Made by a program: the position numbers and the translations under genes. Positions 2,940 through 58,841 of a DNA stretch of 64,000 nt are shown here, in pieces. Each line of letters starts with the position of its first letter. Positions within the stretch are counted from its first letter, which is position 1. A model generated the notes under the pieces. It was not told where the DNA came from. It saw only the letters and a program-made list of their open reading frames with translations, and did no database searches. Origin of the DNA: Hydrogenimonas sp. SS33 (lineage in GTDB: Bacteria > Campylobacterota > Campylobacteria > Campylobacterales > Hydrogenimonadaceae); the NCBI RefSeq assembly GCF_040436365.1, contig NZ_AP026369.1, forward strand, positions 496,001-560,000. The letters run 5' to 3'.

Positions 2940-4696
2940 CGGCTCTCCTCCTTGTAGAAGCGCAGAAAGATCTCCTCGAAACTTTTTGTGCCGGGGAAAG
3001 CTTTGTAGAGGTTGGCCACCGTGTCGTCGGCGATTTTCCTGCCCAGTTTGAGCAGAACGACCCGGTCGCAGTACTCCGCCTCGCTCATGTAGTGGGTGGT
3101 GATGAGTATGGAGATCCCCCACCGCTCCTTGATCAGATGGAGCATCTCCCAGAACTGGCTACGGGCGATGGCGTCAACCCCCGAGGTAGGCTCGTCGAGG
3201 AAGAGGACCACCGGTTCGTGCAGCAGCGCCGCCGCCACGGAGAAGCGCTGGTTGATCCCCAGGGGAAGCTCCGTCGGCAAAGCGTCCATGTAGTTTTCAA
3301 AACCCAGCTCCCGGGCGTAGCGGGCGATGCGCGCCAATGCCTTCTCCACAGGAATCCGGTGCATGTTGGCGAAATAGAGGAGGTTTTCTCTGATGGTCAT
3401 GTCTTTGTAGAGGGCGAAGTGCTGGCTGACGTAGCCGATTTTGGCTTTCAGCGACTGCCGGTCTTTCGCGCTGCGTATGGGCCGCCCCAGCAGCGTCAAC
3501 TCCCCTTCGTCGATGGGGTAGAGCCCCAGCAGCATTTTGATGAAGGTGGTCTTGCCCGCCCCGTTGGCCCCCAGAAGCCCCAGAATCTCACCGCTTTTGA
3601 GCTGCATGTCGATATGGTCGTCGGCCACGAAATCGCCGAAGCGCTTCGTCAGCCCCCTGGCCTCCATCACGACGGGCGGAATTTTCGTTTCGCTCTCTCT
3701 CGGGCTTACTTCGATAACGGGCAACTGCCGGCCCTTCTTGAGGGCGTTGACGAAAAAGAGCGCTTCGAGGGTGGGCTCCTTCCGGGACGCTTCAAGCGGG
3801 TCGAGCGAATAGGTGAAATGGCCCGTATGAATACAACGGTTTTCATTATGACTCAAAGCATCGGCAAAGCCGATACTTTGGCGGGGACTGGCCGTCTCCT
3901 GCACCCCCCTAAAGCTTCGAAATCTTTGATTTCGAGAAGACGCCACGTTTCCGCTTGGCGTCTGAACATCATTGACGGGACAGGGCACGGGCTCGTAGGT
4001 GTAGGGGCGGACCGTCTCCAGCAGCGCTTCGGCGGTGCCGTCGGCCATGATCTCGCCGTCGTCGAAGAGGTAGATCCTGTCCATCCGGGCGGCCTCCTGC
4101 ATGTAGGCGGTGCTCACCAGCGCGACGGTGCCCTCCTCTTTTCGGATATCGTCGAGAATCTCCCACAGCTCCAGCCGGCTGAGGGGGTCGACGCCGGTGG
4201 TGGGTTCGTCGAGTATCAACAGTTTCGGACGGTGCAGCAGGGTGCAGATGAGGGAGAGTTTCTGCATCATGCCGCCGCTGAGTTTGCCGGCGGGCCGGTC
4301 GGTGAAGCGCTCCAGCCCCGCCATATGCAGAAGCCGCTGCCGATACTCACGGAAATCGGCATCTTTTCTGAGGTTGCGGATGGCGGCGAAGAAGTCGAGG
4401 TGTTCCGCGATGGTCAGGTTTTTGTAGAGCACCAGGCCGATCCCCTGGGGCATCAGCCCAAACTTCTCCTTCACTGGTTCCGCCTCTTTCGGGGAGTGGT
4501 AGGCAACCCCTTCGAAGCGGATCTCCCCTTCGAAAGTGCCGACGCCGGCGATGGCGTGCATCAGGGAGCTTTTCCCCGTGCCGTCGGCGCCGATGAAGCC
4601 GATAATCTCCCCCCGCTCGGCTTCCAGCGAGGCGTGACGGATGCCGATGCGCTGTTTGTAGCGGACCGTCACGTCGTGCACTTCAAGCGTCGCCAT
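2936..4696 (-). CDS. Tandem ABC transporter ATPase (YbhF-like) with repeat-encoded linker
   Basis: A 586-residue protein with two nucleotide-binding domains. Domain 1 has Walker A GADGTGKS (36-43), signature LSGGMMQ (139-145) and Walker B LLILDEP (159-165). Domain 2 has Walker A GANGAGKT (376-383) and Walker B VVLFLDEP, but its signature reads LGINQRFS rather than LSGGQ. It probably energises the two ABC-2 permeases encoded just downstream. Residues about 245-284 of the inter-domain linker are translated from hairpin-repeat copy B (3846-3963), read antisense to the repeat and without a frame break. The flanking linker (VPCPVND and TGHFTYSL) looks native. The start overlaps the MFS stop by 14 bp. 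Confidence 0.92.
   Translation of the reverse strand: MATLEVHDVTVRYKQRIGIRHASLEAERGEIIGFIGADGTGKSSLMHAIAGVGTFEGEIRFEGVAYHSPKEAEPVKEKFGLMPQGIGLVLYKNLTIAEHLDFFAAIRNLRKDADFREYRQRLLHMAGLERFTDRPAGKLSGGMMQKLSLICTLLHRPKLLILDEPTTGVDPLSRLELWEILDDIRKEEGTVALVSTAYMQEAARMDRIYLFDDGEIMADGTAEALLETVRPYTYEPVPCPVNDVQTPSGNVASSRNQRFRSFRGVQETASPRQSIGFADALSHNENRCIHTGHFTYSLDPLEASRKEPTLEALFFVNALKKGRQLPVIEVSPRESETKIPPVVMEARGLTKRFGDFVADDHIDMQLKSGEILGLLGANGAGKTTFIKMLLGLYPIDEGELTLLGRPIRSAKDRQSLKAKIGYVSQHFALYKDMTIRENLLYFANMHRIPVEKALARIARYARELGFENYMDALPTELPLGINQRFSVAAALLHEPVVLFLDEPTSGVDAIARSQFWEMLHLIKERWGISILITTHYMSEAEYCDRVVLLKLGRKIADDTVANLYKAFPGTKSFEEIFLRFYKEESR
3846..3963 (+). repeat. Four-hairpin dispersed repeat, copy B, inside an ABC ATPase gene
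   Basis: Stem 1 is 12 bp (3854-3865 with 3869-3880, one C/A mismatch). Stem 2 is GGGGAC 3883-3888 with GTCTCC 3894-3899 (one G/T pair). Stem 3 is CGAAATC 3918-3924 with 3928-3934. Stem 4 is AGACGCCA 3938-3945 with 3956-3963. Compared with copy A, stems 1 and 4 have changed sequence on both arms so that pairing is kept. The copy lies wholly within the minus-strand ATPase gene (2936-4696) in the linker between its two ATP-binding domains and contains no stop codon in that frame. Confidence 0.85.
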
Positions 4697-5855
4697 GGCC
4701 TCTTCCGAAAACGTTGAGGCTGAAGATCATCCACAAAAAAGCGGTGCCCCCCAGGGAGAAAAGAAGCGCCGCCTCCATGCCCAGATGTTCCCACACCATC
4801 CCGCAGACGAAGGCGCCCAGCGCGCCGAAGAGTGCCACGCCGGCGTAGAAGACGCCATAGACCGATCCCCTATTGTCGCTTGCCGCGGCGATGAAAGCGC
4901 GGTTGGCGTTGAGGGTCGCGACGGTGAAGAGCCCCAGAAAGGCGTAGGCGGCCCATGTCAGCCACGGTTTTTGGAACCAGAGCAGTGTCTGGGCCGTCAC
5001 GCCGAAGCCGTACCCAAGCCAGAGGATGCGGCCTGCGCCGATGCGGTCGATCCAGGTACCGAGCAGATAGCTGGTCAGCGTCTGCGTCCCCGTCGAAACG
5101 ACGAACAGCAGCGGAATGAGCATCACCGCAATGCCGACGGTTTTCGCCTGCATCGTGAAAAAGGCTTCGTTGAACATGAAAAAGATGAAGAGAAAGTAGA
5201 AGAAGAGCCGTTTCACCGCCTTTTTGTCCCTCTCGGTGAGCCGGAAGCTCTCTCCCTCCTTCCGGGGGCTCTTCTTCACATCTTTGACGAAAAAGGCGAC
5301 GAGCACCAGGCCGATGAGGCCAGGCGCGAGGGTCGAGAGGAAAATCGCGCGCATCACCGCTTCACTCTGGCCGAAGTGGTACAGGAGCCCGAAGAGCAGC
5401 AGCGTGCCCGTCAACTCTCCCCCGATGTCCAGGGTCTTGTGAAAACCGAAGGTCCTGCCCGACGCGTTTTTGTGGCTGTAGTGGGCGATCATCACATCTT
5501 TGGGCGCCGAACGCAGCCCTTTGCCCAGCCGTTCCAGCGCTTTCAGTGCTGCCACGCTTTTGTAGCTGTTGGTCAGGCCGATCAGGGGTTTTGAGACGGC
5601 GGAAAGGGCGTACCCTCCCACCACCAGCGGTTTGACGATGCCGAAACGGTCACTGATATATCCCGACACCAGCCGCAGTGCGTAGGAGACAAAAGTCGCC
5701 ACCGCCACGATGATCCCCAGCTTGTCCACCCCCTCGTGGAGTGCCACGACGACGAAGATGGGGAGAATCGGGTTGATCATTGCCGACGCCATATCGGTGA
5801 AAAAGCTGACCAGGCCGAGAATGACGACGTTTCGGTCGATTCCTTGTGGTTTCAT
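4683..5855 (-). CDS. Major facilitator superfamily transporter
   Basis: About 390 residues, with twelve probable membrane helices. Conserved MFS features include the motif A-like GYISDRFG after helix 2 and RLGKGLRSAPKD in the loop before helix 5, typical of a drug/metabolite exporter subfamily. Start chosen at ATG 5855 (MKPQGIDRN) because the protein becomes family-like there. An ATG at 5885 would add ten residues (MTNDMPKCPP) encoded by the heptad array. Neither start has a clear ribosome-binding site. It sits between the HlyD and ATPase genes of the exporter operon, which is unusual for a YbhGFSR-type set. Substrate unknown. Confidence 0.85.
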   Translation of the reverse strand: MKPQGIDRNVVILGLVSFFTDMASAMINPILPIFVVVALHEGVDKLGIIVAVATFVSYALRLVSGYISDRFGIVKPLVVGGYALSAVSKPLIGLTNSYKSVAALKALERLGKGLRSAPKDVMIAHYSHKNASGRTFGFHKTLDIGGELTGTLLLFGLLYHFGQSEAVMRAIFLSTLAPGLIGLVLVAFFVKDVKKSPRKEGESFRLTERDKKAVKRLFFYFLFIFFMFNEAFFTMQAKTVGIAVMLIPLLFVVSTGTQTLTSYLLGTWIDRIGAGRILWLGYGFGVTAQTLLWFQKPWLTWAAYAFLGLFTVATLNANRAFIAAASDNRGSVYGVFYAGVALFGALGAFVCGMVWEHLGMEAALLFSLGGTAFLWMIFSLNVFGRGHGDA

Positions 5856-5874
5856 AGGCGGACACTTTGGCATG

Positions 5875-5949
5875 TCATTGGTCATTGAGCATTTGTCATT
5901 GGGAGGGAGAGGAGACGCTTCCCAATGACCAGTTTCCAGTGACCAATGA
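5875..5949. repeat. Inverted pair of four-unit TCATTGG arrays with a 19-bp centre
   Basis: Four heptads of TCATTGG type (5875-5902) are followed by a G-rich 19-bp centre (5903-5921) and four heptads in inverse orientation (CCAATGA type, 5922-5949). The whole 75 bp is an imperfect palindrome. It occupies the only real gap in the minus-strand operon (HlyD stop 5955, MFS start 5855 or 5885), whose other junctions overlap by 4-14 bp. The arm layout equals the ends of the four-helix-bundle element at 10471-10896, so it may be its gene-less form. Confidence 0.8.
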
Positions 5950-5954
5950 CCATC

Positions 5955-7112
5955 TCATATCTCCGGAATATCATGCAATGATCTGGGCAGCCCTTTGCCG
6001 TCCAGGGAGATGACCCCGACGGCGGGGATGCCCAGTTTCAGCAACGGGTCGGGTTTGAGCGGTTTCAGGTGGACGGCGTAGACCCGCTGGATGCGGTCGG
6101 AACGGACATTGACCTCTTTGGGGGTGAACTCCGCTTTCTGGGCGATGCGCACCACCTCCGCGGGGATGGGCCGGTCGGGCCGGGCATCGAGGAAGATGAC
6201 CGCTTTGTCGTGAAGTTTGATCTTCCCGTTTTCGATGGTGTCGACGAAAATCTTCAGGTAGAGCGAATGGGGGTCGATCAGCGTCGCGACGGGCATGCCC
6301 GCACCCAGCACCTCTCCCGGCTGGGCGATTCTCTCCACGACGTGGCCGGTGACGGGAGAGGAGATATTCATGTCGGCCAGGACCGAGTCGGCCTGCTTCA
6401 GTGCGGCCTTCGCGGCGGAAAGTCCATTTTCCAGCGCTTCGATGCCCTGCGTCAACGCTTCGATCTTCCTCTGGGAGGCGGTCGCCTCCTCCAGGTCCGC
6501 TTTCGCGGCGGCGATGGCGGCATCGACCTGCTTGCGCTTCTCTTTCAGCGCTGCCAGCTTCTCTCTGTCGGTGGAGAGCTTCAGCCGGGCCTTCTCCAGC
6601 GCCTCTTTCTGGATGAGCCTCTTTTCGTAGAGGTTTTCGCTGCGCCGGGCATCCCGCTCGTCCTGGGCGACCACCTGCTCCAGTGCGGCGATGTCGCGTT
6701 CCAGCTCCCCTTTCTGCGCCTGCCGGCTATCAAGTGCGGCGTGGGCCCGTTTCAGTGCCAGAGGGATCGTTTTTCGGGCAATGGCCAGTTCGGTCTTTTT
6801 CGACGCCAGTTCCCGCTCTTTCGCCGCCACTTCCGCGGCAATGCGGTTTCTCCGGGCCTCCTGTCCATCATCTTTCTGCCGGGCGACGAGTTCCCCGGCC
6901 CTCACCGGGTCGCCGTCATCGACGCGAACCATCACTACCCGCCCCGGATATTTGACGTTGAGATTGACCAGGTCGCCGTCGATGCGCCCTACCCCCTCGA
7001 CCAGGTTGGCAGGCAGGGTTTTGGGATGGAGTTTCTGATAGATCATCCATCCGGCGACGGCCAGCAACACAGCGGCGACAGCACCCAGCCAATACTTCTT
7101 CAACAGATTCAT
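5955..7112 (-). CDS. HlyD/YbhG-family membrane fusion protein
   Basis: A 385-residue periplasmic adaptor with one N-terminal membrane anchor (residues 8-26), a biotinyl-lipoyl half-domain (about 40-80), a long alpha-helical hairpin rich in Ala, Glu and Lys (about 80-250), the second half of the lipoyl domain (SPVTGHVVERIAQPGE) and a beta-barrel with AEFTPKEVNVRSDR, a segment typical of YbhG-type proteins. It links the inner-membrane ABC exporter to an outer-membrane channel. Its start overlaps the hydrolase stop by 4 bp, and its stop lies 6 bp from the inverted heptad array. Confidence 0.9.
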   Translation of the reverse strand: MNLLKKYWLGAVAAVLLAVAGWMIYQKLHPKTLPANLVEGVGRIDGDLVNLNVKYPGRVVMVRVDDGDPVRAGELVARQKDDGQEARRNRIAAEVAAKERELASKKTELAIARKTIPLALKRAHAALDSRQAQKGELERDIAALEQVVAQDERDARRSENLYEKRLIQKEALEKARLKLSTDREKLAALKEKRKQVDAAIAAAKADLEEATASQRKIEALTQGIEALENGLSAAKAALKQADSVLADMNISSPVTGHVVERIAQPGEVLGAGMPVATLIDPHSLYLKIFVDTIENGKIKLHDKAVIFLDARPDRPIPAEVVRIAQKAEFTPKEVNVRSDRIQRVYAVHLKPLKPDPLLKLGIPAVGVISLDGKGLPRSLHDIPEI

Positions 7113-9339: not shown

Positions 9340-10491
9340 ATGTCGAAAAAGCTCGGTACGCTGTTGCTCATCGTCATCGTTCTTCTTCTGGCGATCGTCG
9401 GATACCGCTACATCCATTTCAGGACGGCCCATGCCGTCAGCGATGCCGCCTTCATTCGGAGCGACCGCCTCTCCACCCTCGCCTTCAAAGTGGGCGGAAA
9501 AGTGGTAGAGATGACCAAGGAGACCAACGCTCCCGTCAGAAAGGGGGAGCTGCTGGCCAGAATCGATGCGGTCGATTTCCTCACCGCCAGAGACGAACTT
9601 CGCCACAAACTGCGGGCGCTTAGCCAAAAGGTCGAAGCGGCGAAGCTCAAAAGGGCGCGGCTGGAAAAGGTCCTCTCGATACGCAGCGAAATCTCCGGAA
9701 ACGATGTGGATTCCCTGCGCCAGAGCATTCTCGCCACCACGCTGAAGATCTCCGCGGCGAAGACCCGGCTCGCCAAACTGGAAAAAGACACCGCCCGCTT
9801 CGCCAACTTGCTTGCCAAACGGCTCATAGAGAGGGAAAAGTACGAAAACGTAAAAACCGAGCGCGATGCCCTGCGCCAAAATGTGGAAGCGATGGAAAAG
9901 GGGCTGCAGGCCGAGCGGGAAAACCTCAAAAAAGCGCAAAACGCCCTGAAACTTTCCAAAACCAATGAAAAGGAGATCGAGGAACTCGCCAAAAGCATCG
10001 CGGCGATGGAAGAGCAGAAGAATGCCCTCCGTGCCGCCATCGAAGATGTGACGCACAAGATCGGCTACACCGAACTCTACGCCCCCTTCGACGGCATCGT
10101 CGCCAAGAAGTTCTTCGACGCCCCCAAAGTGGTCAGGAAAGGGAGCCCCGTCTACGCCGTCACCGACCCCAAAGCGCTCTATTGCGAAGTGTTGCTGTCG
10201 GAGAAGAAGATGCACGGCGTCCATCCCGGAAACGCCGCGGAAATCACCGTCGACGCCATCGGGGACAAGAGCTTCAAAGGCCGCGTCGAATCGATCGCCC
10301 CCACCTCCGCCTCCACCTTCAGCCTCGTCCCCCGCGACATCGCCAGCGGAGAGTTCACGAAACTCGACCAGCGCTTCGTCGTGCGCATCAAACTGGAGGA
10401 GACCGACCCCCGGATGCGGGCGGGGATGGGGGCGTCGGTCGCAATCGCGCGTTCCCGCGAAGCGGGAGAGTCATTGGTCACTGGTCATTAG
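9340..10491 (+). CDS. EmrA/HlyD-family membrane fusion protein
   Basis: A 383-residue adaptor: N-terminal membrane helix (about 5-25), lipoyl half-motif (STLAFKVGGKVVEM), long coiled-coil hairpin (about 75-235), second lipoyl half (ELYAPFDGIVAKKF) and C-terminal barrel. Start ATG 9340 follows AAAGGA at good spacing; a GTG at 9298 lies inside the operator. The stop (TAG 10489-10491) and the last residues (about SLVTGH) come from the TCATTGG array, so the original end was probably just before 10471. It is the first gene of a tripartite efflux operon with the DHA2 MFS and TolC proteins downstream. Confidence 0.9.
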   Translation: MSKKLGTLLLIVIVLLLAIVGYRYIHFRTAHAVSDAAFIRSDRLSTLAFKVGGKVVEMTKETNAPVRKGELLARIDAVDFLTARDELRHKLRALSQKVEAAKLKRARLEKVLSIRSEISGNDVDSLRQSILATTLKISAAKTRLAKLEKDTARFANLLAKRLIEREKYENVKTERDALRQNVEAMEKGLQAERENLKKAQNALKLSKTNEKEIEELAKSIAAMEEQKNALRAAIEDVTHKIGYTELYAPFDGIVAKKFFDAPKVVRKGSPVYAVTDPKALYCEVLLSEKKMHGVHPGNAAEITVDAIGDKSFKGRVESIAPTSASTFSLVPRDIASGEFTKLDQRFVVRIKLEETDPRMRAGMGASVAIARSREAGESLVTGH

Positions 10492-10896
10492 TCATTGGGA
10501 ATGGCGAATATGAGCGAAAAAAGTTTGGGAAGTTTGGAAGTCTATCAAACATCATTGGCGTTGAGCGAGAAAGCTTGGAACGTTTACCTTTCCCTTCCTA
10601 AACAATTTCGTTTCGATATGGGAAGTCAATTTTTGAGGGCTATCGACTCTATCGGTGCCAATATCGCGGAAGGGTATGGCCGGTTTCACTACAAGGATAA
10701 AATCAAATTCTACCACAATGCGCGAGGTTCTTTATGGGAGGCGAAACATTGGCTCTATCTGCTCCATAAAAGGAATTTTCTGGAGCAGGAAACTTTCAAT
10801 CTAATCCTCGATGAACTCAACAAGGCCGGAAAGCGACTTAATCGGTTTATTACGAGCACGGGAGCCCCCAATGACCAATGACCAATATACCAATGA
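10471..10896. mobile_element. Candidate small element: inverted heptad arrays around a four-helix-bundle gene
   Basis: The left end (10471-10498) has four TCATTGG-type heptads. The right end (10868-10896) has four units in inverse orientation (CCAATGA type, with one extra base before the last). Between them lies a single gene for a four-helix-bundle protein. The unit splits the emrA and emrB-like genes, which in this operon type are normally adjacent. The array supplies the emrA stop, the emrB-like start and the stop of the inner gene. No transposase or target duplication is seen, so mobility is a hypothesis. Confidence 0.55.
10501..10881 (+). CDS. Four-helix bundle protein (23S rRNA-intervening-sequence protein family)
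   Basis: A 126-residue helical protein with the family hallmarks: early LEVYQTSLALSEKAWNVY helix, SQFLRAIDSIGANIAEGYGR in the second helix, then RGSLWEAKHWL. Relatives (TIGR02436-type) are encoded in 23S rRNA intervening sequences or stand alone, and the diversity-generating retroelement accessory protein bAvd shares the fold. The exact role is unknown. The start could be ATG 10501 or ATG 10510; the GGGA at 10497-10500 fits 10510 better. Both termini touch TCATTGG arrays, and the gene sits between emrA and emrB-like genes, which it does not resemble functionally. Confidence 0.85.
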   Translation: MANMSEKSLGSLEVYQTSLALSEKAWNVYLSLPKQFRFDMGSQFLRAIDSIGANIAEGYGRFHYKDKIKFYHNARGSLWEAKHWLYLLHKRNFLEQETFNLILDELNKAGKRLNRFITSTGAPNDQ

Positions 10897-12427
10897 CACG
10901 AAGAAATCTTGGGAGATTTCTTCGGCCGAAAGAGCAATATTCTCCATCATCGTCATGACCGGCGCTTTCATGGCAATTTTGGATACGACGGTGGTGGATG
11001 TCATCGTGCCCAAACTCACCGGGCCGTTGGCGACGGATATGTACGGGGTGCAGTGGATCATCACCAGCTATATGGTCGCCGCGGCGATCGCGCTGCTGAT
11101 CACCGAGTGGCTCATCAAGAATTTCGGTGCCAAGGCGGTCTTTCTGGGGGGTGTGGCGCTTTTTACAGGAGCCTCCTTTTTCTGCGGCATCTCGGGGTCG
11201 CTGGAGGAGATCATCATTTTCCGCATCATCCAGGGGATCGGCGAGGCGCTGATCATGGTAACGAGCCACATCATGATCTTCAGCTACTTTCCCCCCGAAA
11301 AGCAGGGGCTGGCGATGGGGCTTTACGGCCTGGGGGTCAGTTTCGCGCCGGCTCTGGGCCCCACGATCGGCGGTTACCTGACCGAATATTACAGCTGGCG
11401 GATGGTCTTCTTCATCAATGTCCCCGTCGGGCTTCTGCTGGTCATCGCCGGGCTGGTCTTTCTGCCGAAAGAGTCGATGTTTCAGAAGCTCAAGTTCAAT
11501 TTTATCAGTTTTTTATTGCTCTCTTTCGCCACCATCTCCCTGCTCATCATGCTAAGCCGTGGCCAGCAGCTCGGCTGGTTCAACTCCATCGAAATCGGCG
11601 TCCTGCTCCTGTGCACCCTCGTCGGATTCGCCCTCTATGCCCTGAGCGAACTCAACGCAAAAGACAGGCTCATCGACTTCTCCCTCTTCAAAAATCCGCT
11701 CTTCGCCAACGGGATGATGATCTACTTCTTCATCCTCGGCTTTTCGATGTACCAGTACTTCTATCTGCTGCCGGTCTACTACGAACATATCAAGATGCTG
11801 CCCACCCTCGACGCCGGTATCGCCGTCTTCGCCTTCGCCGTCTTCATCGGCCTCTTTTCACCGCTTGCAGGGATGCTCGCGGACAAGATCGGGGCGAAAA
11901 AAACGGTGGCGATCGCCGCTTTTTTCTATGTTGCCACCTCCCTATTCTTCCTGCCCACGCTCAACTACTACACGCCCCTGCACCAGGCGATGCTCATTAC
12001 GATTCCATTCGGTATCGGCATGGGGCTCTTTTTCGCGCCGGTGACGGTGATGGTCCTTCAGAACGCCCCGGGCCACAAAGGGGAGCTGGCGATCGTTCTG
12101 ATGGACTATTTCCGCTTTGTCGGCGGCAGTTTCGGCACGGCGCTGGCCACCAACAATATGGAATATTTCAAAAACCTCCATTTTCTACGCATGGAGGAGC
12201 TTCAGAATACGGAATATCTCGCATGGTTCCTCCAGCGCCTCCATGCCCTTTCGGGCCTGTCGATGGAGAGGATCAAGGCGGTCTTCGGCAACTATGAAGC
12301 GTTCATGAGTTACAACTACGGCTTTTACAACACATTCATGCATGCGGGATACTGGGGGCTGCTGGGGTCCCTTTTCGTGGTTCTGCTTTTCGTGAAAAAC
12401 CCGTTCAAAAAGGAGGTAGCGGTATGA
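10871..12427 (+). CDS. EmrB/DHA2-family MFS multidrug exporter
   Basis: A 518-residue, 14-helix exporter of the drug:H+ antiporter-2 family. It has MAILDTTVVDVIVP in helix 1 (motif D1), VQWIITSYMVAAAI, and GVSFAPALGPTIGGYL (motif C of exporters) in helix 5. The start ATG 10871 is inside the inverted heptad array and overlaps the end of the four-helix-bundle gene by 11 bp, so the first nine residues (MTNDQYTND) are array-encoded. The real fold begins at about SSAERAIFSI. With the HlyD and TolC genes it forms a tripartite pump, probably for hydrophobic compounds. Confidence 0.9.
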   Translation: MTNDQYTNDTKKSWEISSAERAIFSIIVMTGAFMAILDTTVVDVIVPKLTGPLATDMYGVQWIITSYMVAAAIALLITEWLIKNFGAKAVFLGGVALFTGASFFCGISGSLEEIIIFRIIQGIGEALIMVTSHIMIFSYFPPEKQGLAMGLYGLGVSFAPALGPTIGGYLTEYYSWRMVFFINVPVGLLLVIAGLVFLPKESMFQKLKFNFISFLLLSFATISLLIMLSRGQQLGWFNSIEIGVLLLCTLVGFALYALSELNAKDRLIDFSLFKNPLFANGMMIYFFILGFSMYQYFYLLPVYYEHIKMLPTLDAGIAVFAFAVFIGLFSPLAGMLADKIGAKKTVAIAAFFYVATSLFFLPTLNYYTPLHQAMLITIPFGIGMGLFFAPVTVMVLQNAPGHKGELAIVLMDYFRFVGGSFGTALATNNMEYFKNLHFLRMEELQNTEYLAWFLQRLHALSGLSMERIKAVFGNYEAFMSYNYGFYNTFMHAGYWGLLGSLFVVLLFVKNPFKKEVAV

Positions 12428-13734
12428 GGGTTATTGGTTATTGGTTACTGGTTATCGGTTTTTCCGTTACGAGTGCGCAGGCAGAGAGTTACAGAGATAT
12501 CATCGCCGGGGTAGATCGGGCGCTGGCGCTGAAGAGTGCCGATGCGATGGTGGAAGCGGCCGGGTTGCAGGCCGAAGCGGCGAAGGGGAAAAACCTCCCC
12601 TCCCTCGACGCCCATCTGGATGCCGTGCGCCTAAAAGACGACCCTGTGATGTATCTGCATTTCCCTCTGTTCCCGGCTCCTACCGGTGCGGTACCCATGG
12701 CGACCAAATCCCAATGGCACGGCGACCTGACCCTCTCCTACCCCCTTTTCACCGGCTTTGCCGTCACCGCCTCCATCGACAAAGCCTCCTACGAGCATGC
12801 CCTGGCGGCCCTGAAACGTGACGACCTCCGGCGCAACCTCTACCTGCAGGCGACCCGGCTCTACACCGCCGTCTATGCCGCGGGCAGGATTCTGGAGGCG
12901 CAGAAGAAGGCGAAAAAGGCGATGGACGACGCCTACAAAAAGGCGAAAGGGCTCTACGACAACGGCCTCCTCCCCCCGGCGGACCTCTACAATATCGAAG
13001 CGAAAAGATACGCCATCGAGGCGGAAATCACCGAATCCAAAAACCGCAAATCGCAGCTGCTCAACCGCCTCTCCTACCTTCTGGACCGTCCCGTCGAAAC
13101 CGCCGATGCGCCGGAAGCGGCCCAGTTCACTCTGCAGAAAAAGGAGATTCTTCAGACCGCCCTCACCTCCAGGGAAGATATCCGCGCTCTGAAAACTTCG
13201 CTGAAAGTCGACGAATCGCTGGAGAAGCTGGCCAAAAGCCGCTACTACCCCACTGTCGGGGTGGCGGCCGCGCTGAAAAAGCACGGCGACACCCTCCGCC
13301 TCAACGGGGACGGCTACACCAATGCCGACCAGAGCTACGTGGGCGCGACGATGTCGTGGAACCTTTTCGAGGGTTTCAGCGATGAAAAGAGGGTCGAAGC
13401 GGCACGAAAGAGGATTCTCGCTGCCAAACTCACACTTCGCGACTACGAAAAGCGGGTGGCGACGGAGCTGCGAAACGCCTTCCTCGATCTGTCCGCCATG
13501 CGCTCGAAACTTCTCAGCGCCCAAATGGAGGTGAAGGCGCGCAAGGAGTACTACAAACTCACCCTGGGCCGGTTCGAAAACCAGCTCGCAAGTGCCGACG
13601 AACTGAGCCGCGCCATCGCCGACCTGGCCGCCGCGCGGGCGAAGGTTTCGGCCCTCAAAAGCGAACTGTTCAACGAGAAAATGACCATTTTGCTGATGAG
13701 CGGACTGGAAAATTTCCGTAAATATTTCAGATAA
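12424..13734 (+). CDS. TolC-family outer membrane efflux protein
   Basis: A 436-residue outer-membrane channel protein with two repeats of long helices and short strands (outer membrane efflux family). The start ATG 12424 overlaps the MFS stop by 4 bp and follows a strong AAGGAGGT (12410-12417). The signal peptide (MRVIGYWLLVIGFSVTSAQA, cleaved near AQA-ES) is encoded in its first half by four TTATTGG-like heptads (12431-12458), so period-7 DNA gives the hydrophobic Val-Ile-Gly/Trp-Leu-Leu core. It serves the EmrAB-like pump and possibly the divergent ABC exporter, which lacks its own channel. Confidence 0.9.
   Translation: MRVIGYWLLVIGFSVTSAQAESYRDIIAGVDRALALKSADAMVEAAGLQAEAAKGKNLPSLDAHLDAVRLKDDPVMYLHFPLFPAPTGAVPMATKSQWHGDLTLSYPLFTGFAVTASIDKASYEHALAALKRDDLRRNLYLQATRLYTAVYAAGRILEAQKKAKKAMDDAYKKAKGLYDNGLLPPADLYNIEAKRYAIEAEITESKNRKSQLLNRLSYLLDRPVETADAPEAAQFTLQKKEILQTALTSREDIRALKTSLKVDESLEKLAKSRYYPTVGVAAALKKHGDTLRLNGDGYTNADQSYVGATMSWNLFEGFSDEKRVEAARKRILAAKLTLRDYEKRVATELRNAFLDLSAMRSKLLSAQMEVKARKEYYKLTLGRFENQLASADELSRAIADLAAARAKVSALKSELFNEKMTILLMSGLENFRKYFR
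12431..12458 (+). repeat. Four TTATTGG heptads encoding part of the TolC signal peptide
   Basis: Four 7-bp units (TTATTGG twice, then TTACTGG and TTATCGG) begin seven bases after the start of the TolC gene. The words are one base away from the TCATTGG arrays elsewhere in the window. Read in frame they give hydrophobic residues compatible with a signal-peptide core. Confidence 0.8.
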
Positions 13735-57956: not shown

Positions 57957-58841
57957 TCATATCCCTATTCTATCCAACAAAATCTTCGCCCCTTCCAGCG
58001 ACGCGTCCTGAATGGCACTTCTTTCGATGCGCAAACCCTCCAGAGAGGCCGCCAACGCCAGGCCGCCCATCCGGGTCCGTACCTCGTCGGCAACCCAGGG
58101 GTTGTGCGCCACCACCCCGCCTCCCAGAACCAGCACTTCGGGATTGCAGAGCGTCACCAGCGTCGCGGCGGCATGGCTCAACGCCTCCAGATATTTTATG
58201 GCAATATCATGGCAAACCTTTTGCTGATTCTCGTTTCCCGATTCTCGATTCTCGTTTCTCGTTTCCCCATAATCCACCCATGCCCCCAAATCGGGCTCCC
58301 CTTCGCATCCTGTCTGCCGCATCCACTTCTGCAAACCGCTTCCCGAAGCGTAGAGTTCCAGACAGTTGTCCTTTCCGCATCCGCACCGAAAAGGGGCCTT
58401 CCGGTAGGGGACGTGGCCCACCTCTGCCGCCAGGGAGCGGAAACCGTGGAATATCTCCCCCTTCTCGATGATGCCCGAACCCAGCCCCGTCCCCGAATAG
58501 AGGGCGACGAGGTGGCCGCTCTCCCAGTAGACCGACTCCGCCAGGGCGGCGCAGTTGAGGTCGTTTTCCAGCATCAGGGGAATGCCGTATGCCGCTTCCA
58601 CCCAGTCGGCGATATCCGGCTCGTCCACCTCGATGTTGGGGGCCGAGAGAATAGAGCCCCCATGCACCTGTCCTGCGTAGGAGACGGCGATGGTGTCGAT
58701 GTCGGGGCAGGTACGCATCGCCTCTTCGATAAAGGCTTTGAGGCCCCTCTTGCGGCTGGGGATCTTTCCGCAGAACTCCTGGGGGCCTACCAGTTCGTAG
58801 CGCAGCCACGTCCCGCCGATGTCGATGGCCAGACGGCTCAT
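57957..58841 (-). CDS. ROK-family glucokinase with repeat-encoded insertion
   Basis: 294 residues: ATP/phosphate motif DIGGTWLRYE, catalytic ENDLNCAAL, GTGLGSGII, GHVPY and the ROK zinc motif CGCGKDNCLELYASG. It phosphorylates glucose (or a related hexose) from glucan breakdown. Residues about 192-206 (ETRNENRESGNENQ) are encoded by six 7-bp units (58226-58267), exactly 42 bp, so the frame is kept. The insertion lies in a loop between helices after the zinc site and before VCHDIAIKYLEAL. Whether the enzyme remains active is unknown. Confidence 0.9.
   Translation of the reverse strand: MSRLAIDIGGTWLRYELVGPQEFCGKIPSRKRGLKAFIEEAMRTCPDIDTIAVSYAGQVHGGSILSAPNIEVDEPDIADWVEAAYGIPLMLENDLNCAALAESVYWESGHLVALYSGTGLGSGIIEKGEIFHGFRSLAAEVGHVPYRKAPFRCGCGKDNCLELYASGSGLQKWMRQTGCEGEPDLGAWVDYGETRNENRESGNENQQKVCHDIAIKYLEALSHAAATLVTLCNPEVLVLGGGVVAHNPWVADEVRTRMGGLALAASLEGLRIERSAIQDASLEGAKILLDRIGI
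58226..58267. repeat. Six-unit GATTCTC/GTTTCCC heptad array inside the glucokinase gene
   Basis: Six units of 7 bp (GATTCTC three times, GTTTCCC twice, GTTTCTC once) lie in the coding sequence. Forty-two bases equal 14 codons, so the reading frame is unchanged. The same words, on the other strand, appear in the array at 58861-58907. Confidence 0.85.

Follow-up and report, generated by a model that had tools for sequence, protein, structure and literature searches.

A gene-less pair of inverted heptad arrays in a Hydrogenimonas operon belongs to a widespread class of paired repeats

What is a 75-bp palindrome in the only gap of an operon whose other genes overlap? In the window analysed here (64,000 nucleotides of Hydrogenimonas sp. 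SS33, NZ_AP026369.1, 496,001 to 560,000), such a palindrome lies at positions 5875 to 5949, where an initial annotation had described four TCATTGG-type units, a 19-bp centre, and four inverted units. This structure was borne out base by base, and the coordinates were exact. The left arm (5875 to 5902, plus strand) consists of four 7-bp units, TCATTGG TCATTGA GCATTTG TCATTGG in this order, whose G-rich strand points inward. The centre (5903 to 5921) is the 19-bp sequence GAGGGAGAGGAGACGCTTC, and the right arm (5922 to 5949, minus strand) consists of four inverted 7-bp units, which read TCATTGG TCACTGG AAACTGG TCATTGG on the minus strand. The arms match each other at 22 of 28 positions; the outermost and innermost units are perfect, and the middle units are decayed. 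In the operon direction, the RNA of this stretch is predicted to fold at -35.6 kcal/mol (z = -4.24; none of 200 shuffles was equally stable), in agreement with the strong hairpin expected earlier between the HlyD and MFS genes, and folding as DNA gives z = -4.69. The heptad, sought as TCATTGGTCATTGG with up to two mismatches allowed, occurs 221 times on the plus strand and 173 times on the minus strand of the 2.25-Mb genome, versus 12 and 7 times for its reversed control. The abundance of the heptads and the z-scores of the folds rule out a chance palindrome.

The flanking genes, both assigned by Pfam, lie on the minus strand: the gene of an HlyD-family membrane fusion protein upstream of the insertion (5955 to 7112) and an MFS transporter gene downstream of it (4683 to 5885). 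The MFS ORF in its longer form (to 5885) begins within the palindrome arm, and the conserved start ATG is at 5855. The HlyD gene overlaps its upstream neighbour by 4 bp (7109 to 7112), and the MFS gene overlaps an ABC gene by 14 bp (4683 to 4696), so that the HlyD-MFS junction is indeed the sole gap of the operon. Is the palindrome present in related species? Below, G000 is the genome of the window and G001 onward are relatives. Ten genomes of the same genus have neither the palindrome nor heptads at this junction. In eight genomes (G001, G002, G003, G006, G009, G010, G013, and G014), the HlyD stop codon overlaps the MFS start codon by ATGA, within TATGA in seven of the eight, while G005 and G008 have a heptad-free gap of about 11 bp. 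The closest relative, G016 (MFS protein 83% identical), has a gap of about 150 bp with an unrelated sequence. An 18-bp spacer between the palindrome and the MFS start (5857 to 5874, minus strand) is likewise missing in the relatives. Since the orthologous junctions are empty, the 75 bp and the 18 bp on the MFS side were gained in this lineage, and the comparison places the insertion later than the separation of this lineage from its closest sequenced relatives. Both reading frames are intact despite the insertion, and the genes overlapping in eight relatives are now spaced apart. TATGA flanks the palindrome on both sides, at the MFS start (5852 to 5856, minus strand) and at the HlyD stop (5955 to 5959, minus strand). 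These may be target-site duplicates; it is a single 5-bp case, and in the three closest relatives the two genes are separated by a gap instead of overlapping. Because each TATGA doubles as stop or start context, a target-site duplication is possible but not proven, and none was found at the pilin site when compared with the empty G008 site.

Is this palindrome a solitary structure? Arrays were sought in even 20-kb samples, forming an unbiased 400 kb of the 2.25-Mb genome, as well as in the window and in targeted stretches selected by heptad hits. The detection is biased toward intact arrays, and strand polarity was called from composition. The 400-kb sample contained 43 period-7 and 3 period-8 arrays, versus one and none in a Markov control. 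There are many unit families, such as TCATTGG, TCGTTGG, GCATTGG, AGTGAAC, AGTGGGT, CGGAAAA, CCGATTC, and octads (e.g., GTGAGAAG), among others. In all sampled DNA, neighbouring arrays were G-then-C (convergent) in 31 cases and C-then-G (divergent) in none, with 10 GG and 2 CC cases, and the unbiased 400 kb yielded the same result (13 convergent versus 0 divergent). An inner-side partner, weaker ones included, was found at 29 of 46 arrays (27 of opposite polarity) and an outer-side neighbour at 3, the random background for partner detection being 14 in 400. This convergent excess is not what randomly oriented single arrays would give, and the initial observation of inverted pairing survives. 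G016 agrees weakly (three GC and one CG), and G002 has five GC and three CG cases, all three of the latter spanning tRNA genes between palindromes. The same intergenic junction can carry different unit families in different genomes (L055:1086 and L055:10265, compared with G016 and G008), which implies either concerted turnover of the units or repeated use of the sites.

The palindrome had been likened to the ends of a unit at 10471 to 10896, and the four-unit arm plan is in fact shared. The unit at 10471 to 10896 is 426 bp long with ends of 28 to 30 bp, and a PF05635 gene (23S_rRNA_IVP by Pfam, a four-helix bundle; 10495 to 10881, plus strand) lies between a left arm (10471 to 10498, plus strand; TCATTGG TCACTGG TCATTAG TCATTGG) and a right arm (10867 to 10896, minus strand; four units with one extra base). 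In its predicted fold, the ends close the entire unit (z = -3.06). TCACTGG is unit 2 both in this left arm and in the right arm of the palindrome. Does the palindrome derive from such a unit by internal deletion, as had been suggested? The S23p/IVP ORF, present in the 426-bp unit, is absent from the 75 bp. The centre of the palindrome scores 9.0 against the interior of the unit, no better than the shuffles (95% level of 9.0), and its origin as a remnant of the unit is unsupported. Three other gene-less TCATTGG arrays retain part of the left inner edge of the unit (1793664 and 721750 in G000, and 593966 in G016); there are only these three, and two of them, 593966 and 721750, are at one orthologous site. 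Thus, the description as a MITE-like derivative stands in part: the palindrome has terminal inverted repeats in common with the IVP unit, no ORF, and a size under about 600 bp, but its centre has no significant similarity to the interior of the presumed autonomous element.

Matched ends were found, as a class, only in the gene-bearing units with a PF05635 gene, and this holds across phyla. In this genome, there are five IVP genes; each is flanked by inverted arrays on its two sides, and the unit differs from gene to gene. Among 31 IVP loci of this order, 21 lie above the 95% null and 16 above the 99% null. At 79 IVP loci outside the Campylobacterota set, the median end match is 17, versus 8 for mismatched loci; 62 of them exceed the 95% and 41 the 99% null level, and the units vary by locus. 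Arms of the same kind are found at IVP loci of viral contigs, and many of these loci exceed the 95% null. Throughout the retrieved loci (L031-L035, L056-L084, and L217-L319), PF05635 genes often lie between matched inverted arrays whose units are 7, 8, or 9 bp long; among the IVP hits, L217, from a Campylobacteraceae MAG, is the closest. At the same chromosomal site, IVP genes of different genomes can have different units at both ends, as in L035 versus L077/L078 (presumably between tpiA and fabI, gene names being read from the flanks) and in the pilin locus (L033 versus L064). For IVP loci lacking clear arms, an rRNA context was sought, and no Rfam match was found in 20 loci. A literature search found no description of matched inverted arrays bracketing PF05635 genes. 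The palindrome at 5875 to 5949 belongs, as a member without a gene, to this widespread and undescribed class of paired repeats, which in many phyla bracket a small gene.

How might such a pair arise, and what would it do in the mRNA? The reading that I favour, with somewhat better than even confidence, takes the palindrome for an IVP-type insertion that has heptad ends but no gene and that this lineage has gained; in the mRNA, it would fold as a bulged hairpin and most likely be cut or tolerated. The ends of the element would be standard, each with about four tandem 7-bp units (28 bp) and the G-rich strand running inward from both edges; gene-bearing members carry an IVP gene between matched ends, and the gene-less copy settled at the HlyD-MFS junction without disturbing the frames. 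Movement may depend on a shared machinery, for which the IVP pentamer is a candidate. For the hairpin in the operon mRNA, cutting or tolerance would probably follow the model of the intervening sequences (IVSs) of 23S rRNA and of the Correia elements, as these are handled by RNase III. The IVS of Coxiella burnetii is 428 nt long, with an S23p ORF and a 28-bp terminal stem, and is excised by RNase III; S23p belongs to the IVP family and forms a homopentameric torus (PMC4990558). The unit in the window resembles it in its PF05635 protein, its length (426 bp versus about 428 nt), and its complementary ends of about 28 bp, and the palindrome likewise has stem-forming complementary ends. However, the palindrome lies between the HlyD and MFS genes rather than inside an rRNA gene, and the units in general lie between protein genes (in G002, also in rRNA spacers), not in rRNA helices; their ends are tandem 7-8 bp units varying by locus, and excision by RNase III is only putative. 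Gene-less IVSs are also known in rRNA. Correia elements are gene-less inverted-repeat insertions that can be RNase III substrates in mRNA (PMC2649163, PMC10969869). These miniature intergenic elements of Neisseria (Correia/NEMIS) share the inverted-repeat design, and their terminal hairpins are the RNase III substrates, but their terminal inverted repeats have a fixed sequence, without heptad arrays or IVP. In G002, the only genome in which 23S genes were found, both rRNA operon spacers have gene-less same-family palindromes around tRNA-Ile and tRNA-Ala (L342:1113-1500 and L358:11948-12338; GTCGATG and AGTGAGG families). RNA cutting is routine in rRNA operon spacers. Because of these parallels, the palindrome is read as an insertion that is tolerated between cistrons and whose RNA is probably either cut or neutral.

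An alternative, unlikely but deserving weight, is that two independent arrays, one per edge of the gap, follow a common polarity rule and are both TCATTGG, the commonest family, by chance. Most gene-less pairs of this genome combine two different unit families, and the mean arm complementarity of gene-less pairs (-19.5 kcal/mol) equals that of mismatched arms (-19.3 kcal/mol), which rejects arm complementarity as a general rule of gene-less pairs. The palindrome is therefore a minority same-family pair at about chance frequency and need not be a single transposed unit. In keeping with independent arrays, 24.3% of null pairings pair as well as the palindrome arms, and only 5 places have the inner units in exact inversion (CATTGG..CCAATG), versus 3 for the control. 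Moreover, 190 random pairs of intact same-family arms all match at 24 or more positions, so that the 22 of 28 of the palindrome is worse than every one of them. On the other hand, the strict convergent polarity and the inner-side partners indicate that the placement of two arrays is not independent; the IVP units have matched ends, and the rRNA-spacer palindromes of G002 are same-family. That the arms match may be due to chance, which would draw the commonest family most often, but the inverted orientation is not luck.

It is very improbable that selection maintains the palindrome as a regulatory hairpin in the HlyD-MFS operon, acting in attenuation, mRNA stability, or coupling. Its stable fold and its position exactly between two cistrons would suit such a role. 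However, it is missing from ten relatives with the same operon, its middle units are decayed without compensation, and the same kind of pairs is found at many unrelated junctions. The poor arm match relative to all 190 random pairs also speaks against a hairpin maintained by selection, with the proviso that detection favours intact arrays. An intrinsic terminator is rejected, as no terminator-like T tail follows the stem.

It is very improbable that template switching duplicated one array locally in inverted orientation and that slippage made the units. Such a duplication would result in same-family arms, and tandem units slip easily; arrays of 8 to 21 units exist in another class here. However, most pairs are heterologous in family and yet have the same polarity. 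Exactly four units are found in 33 of 47 TCATTGG-like arrays (which have up to six units), and the TCACTGG-type variant is concentrated at the second unit (p = 0.0026 when the units of each array are shuffled). Since the four-unit count prevails and the variant clusters at one position, the arrays look copied as 28-bp blocks, which fits them better than slippage.

REPINs are hairpin-forming inverted doublets (PMC3116915), and they resemble the present pairs as scattered intergenic doublets that appear to be the replicative unit, with gene-bearing loci flanked by the same repeats; here, however, tandem heptads replace REPs, there are many unit families per genome, and IVP replaces the Y1 transposase. 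It is highly improbable that a Y1 (RAYT-type) transposase moved the palindrome as a non-autonomous element of the REPIN kind, or that a telomerase-like reverse transcriptase added the repeats: Y1_Tnp and RVT_1 are each represented by one gene in G000, but Y1_Tnp is missing from the array-bearing G016 and G008, no period-7/8 array lies beside any of the Y1 genes found, the palindrome itself has no linked Y1/RAYT gene, and only 2 of the 18 genus genomes have RVT_1. As a resident requirement, these enzymes are largely refuted; movement in trans from a lost gene is possible.

Two old puzzles, the origin of the heptamer repeats at bacterial gene borders and the function of the IVP/S23p protein, meet here at common loci. 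Since matched inverted arrays bracket the IVP gene in many phyla, both become testable, and the gene-less pairs show how an element can settle in operon-gene overlaps and leaders with genes unbroken. The STRR of cyanobacteria and the TAACTGA repeats of Beggiatoaceae are likewise short 7-mer arrays of many families at gene borders, for which horizontal transfer is suspected and no mechanism is given; they are described as direct repeats, with a single inverted case in the Beggiatoaceae genome, and neither an IVP link nor paired polarity is reported there (PMC4679880). A tentative and rather unlikely extension is that IVP genes and paired inward arrays of 7/8/9-bp units make up a single, undescribed superfamily of minimal mobile elements in bacterial phyla and viral contigs, with gene-less pairs, the palindrome included, as non-autonomous copies, and that each protomer of the toroidal IVP pentamer reads one unit of the array, in a TRAP-like manner. 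If true, TRAP-like reading would set the 7-nt period and allow each element its own unit, and the superfamily would account for the orphan heptamer repeats of many genomes and for the function of S23p/IVP. IVP has no known catalytic activity and is not a known nuclease. A strict unit motif (RG dinucleotide, period 7) has an information of 3.35 versus a null of 2.94 (sd 0.12), a merely suggestive signal, and the TRAP-like idea is therefore speculative.

Heptads were also found in other settings. In G000, long homogeneous heptad arrays of up to 21 units and differing families enclose a conserved core of 85 bp, which contains a Fur-box-like GAGAATCATTCTC and a TTGACA motif; this is a second, perhaps phase-variable, repeat class (172214, 281094, 341236, 766292, 836108, 924515, 1306131, 1420600, 1432937, 1674666, 1690213, and 2147664). 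In the window, TTATTGG-type heptads at 12424 to 12460 encode the signal peptide (MRVIGYWLLVIGF) of a TolC-like protein, whose G016 version has diverged. Prepilin leaders of G000 (1239591, 1240064-1240181, and 1240713-1240831) are also heptad-encoded in frame, and another in-frame array (58228 to 58265 of the window) lies inside a ROK-like kinase ORF (57957 to 58841, minus strand; family judged by eye from the translation). The mini-hairpins GGGGCTTCGCCCC and GCGGCAAAGCCGC recur beside sampled G000 arrays, for example at 172098, 281047, 338495, and 1690051.
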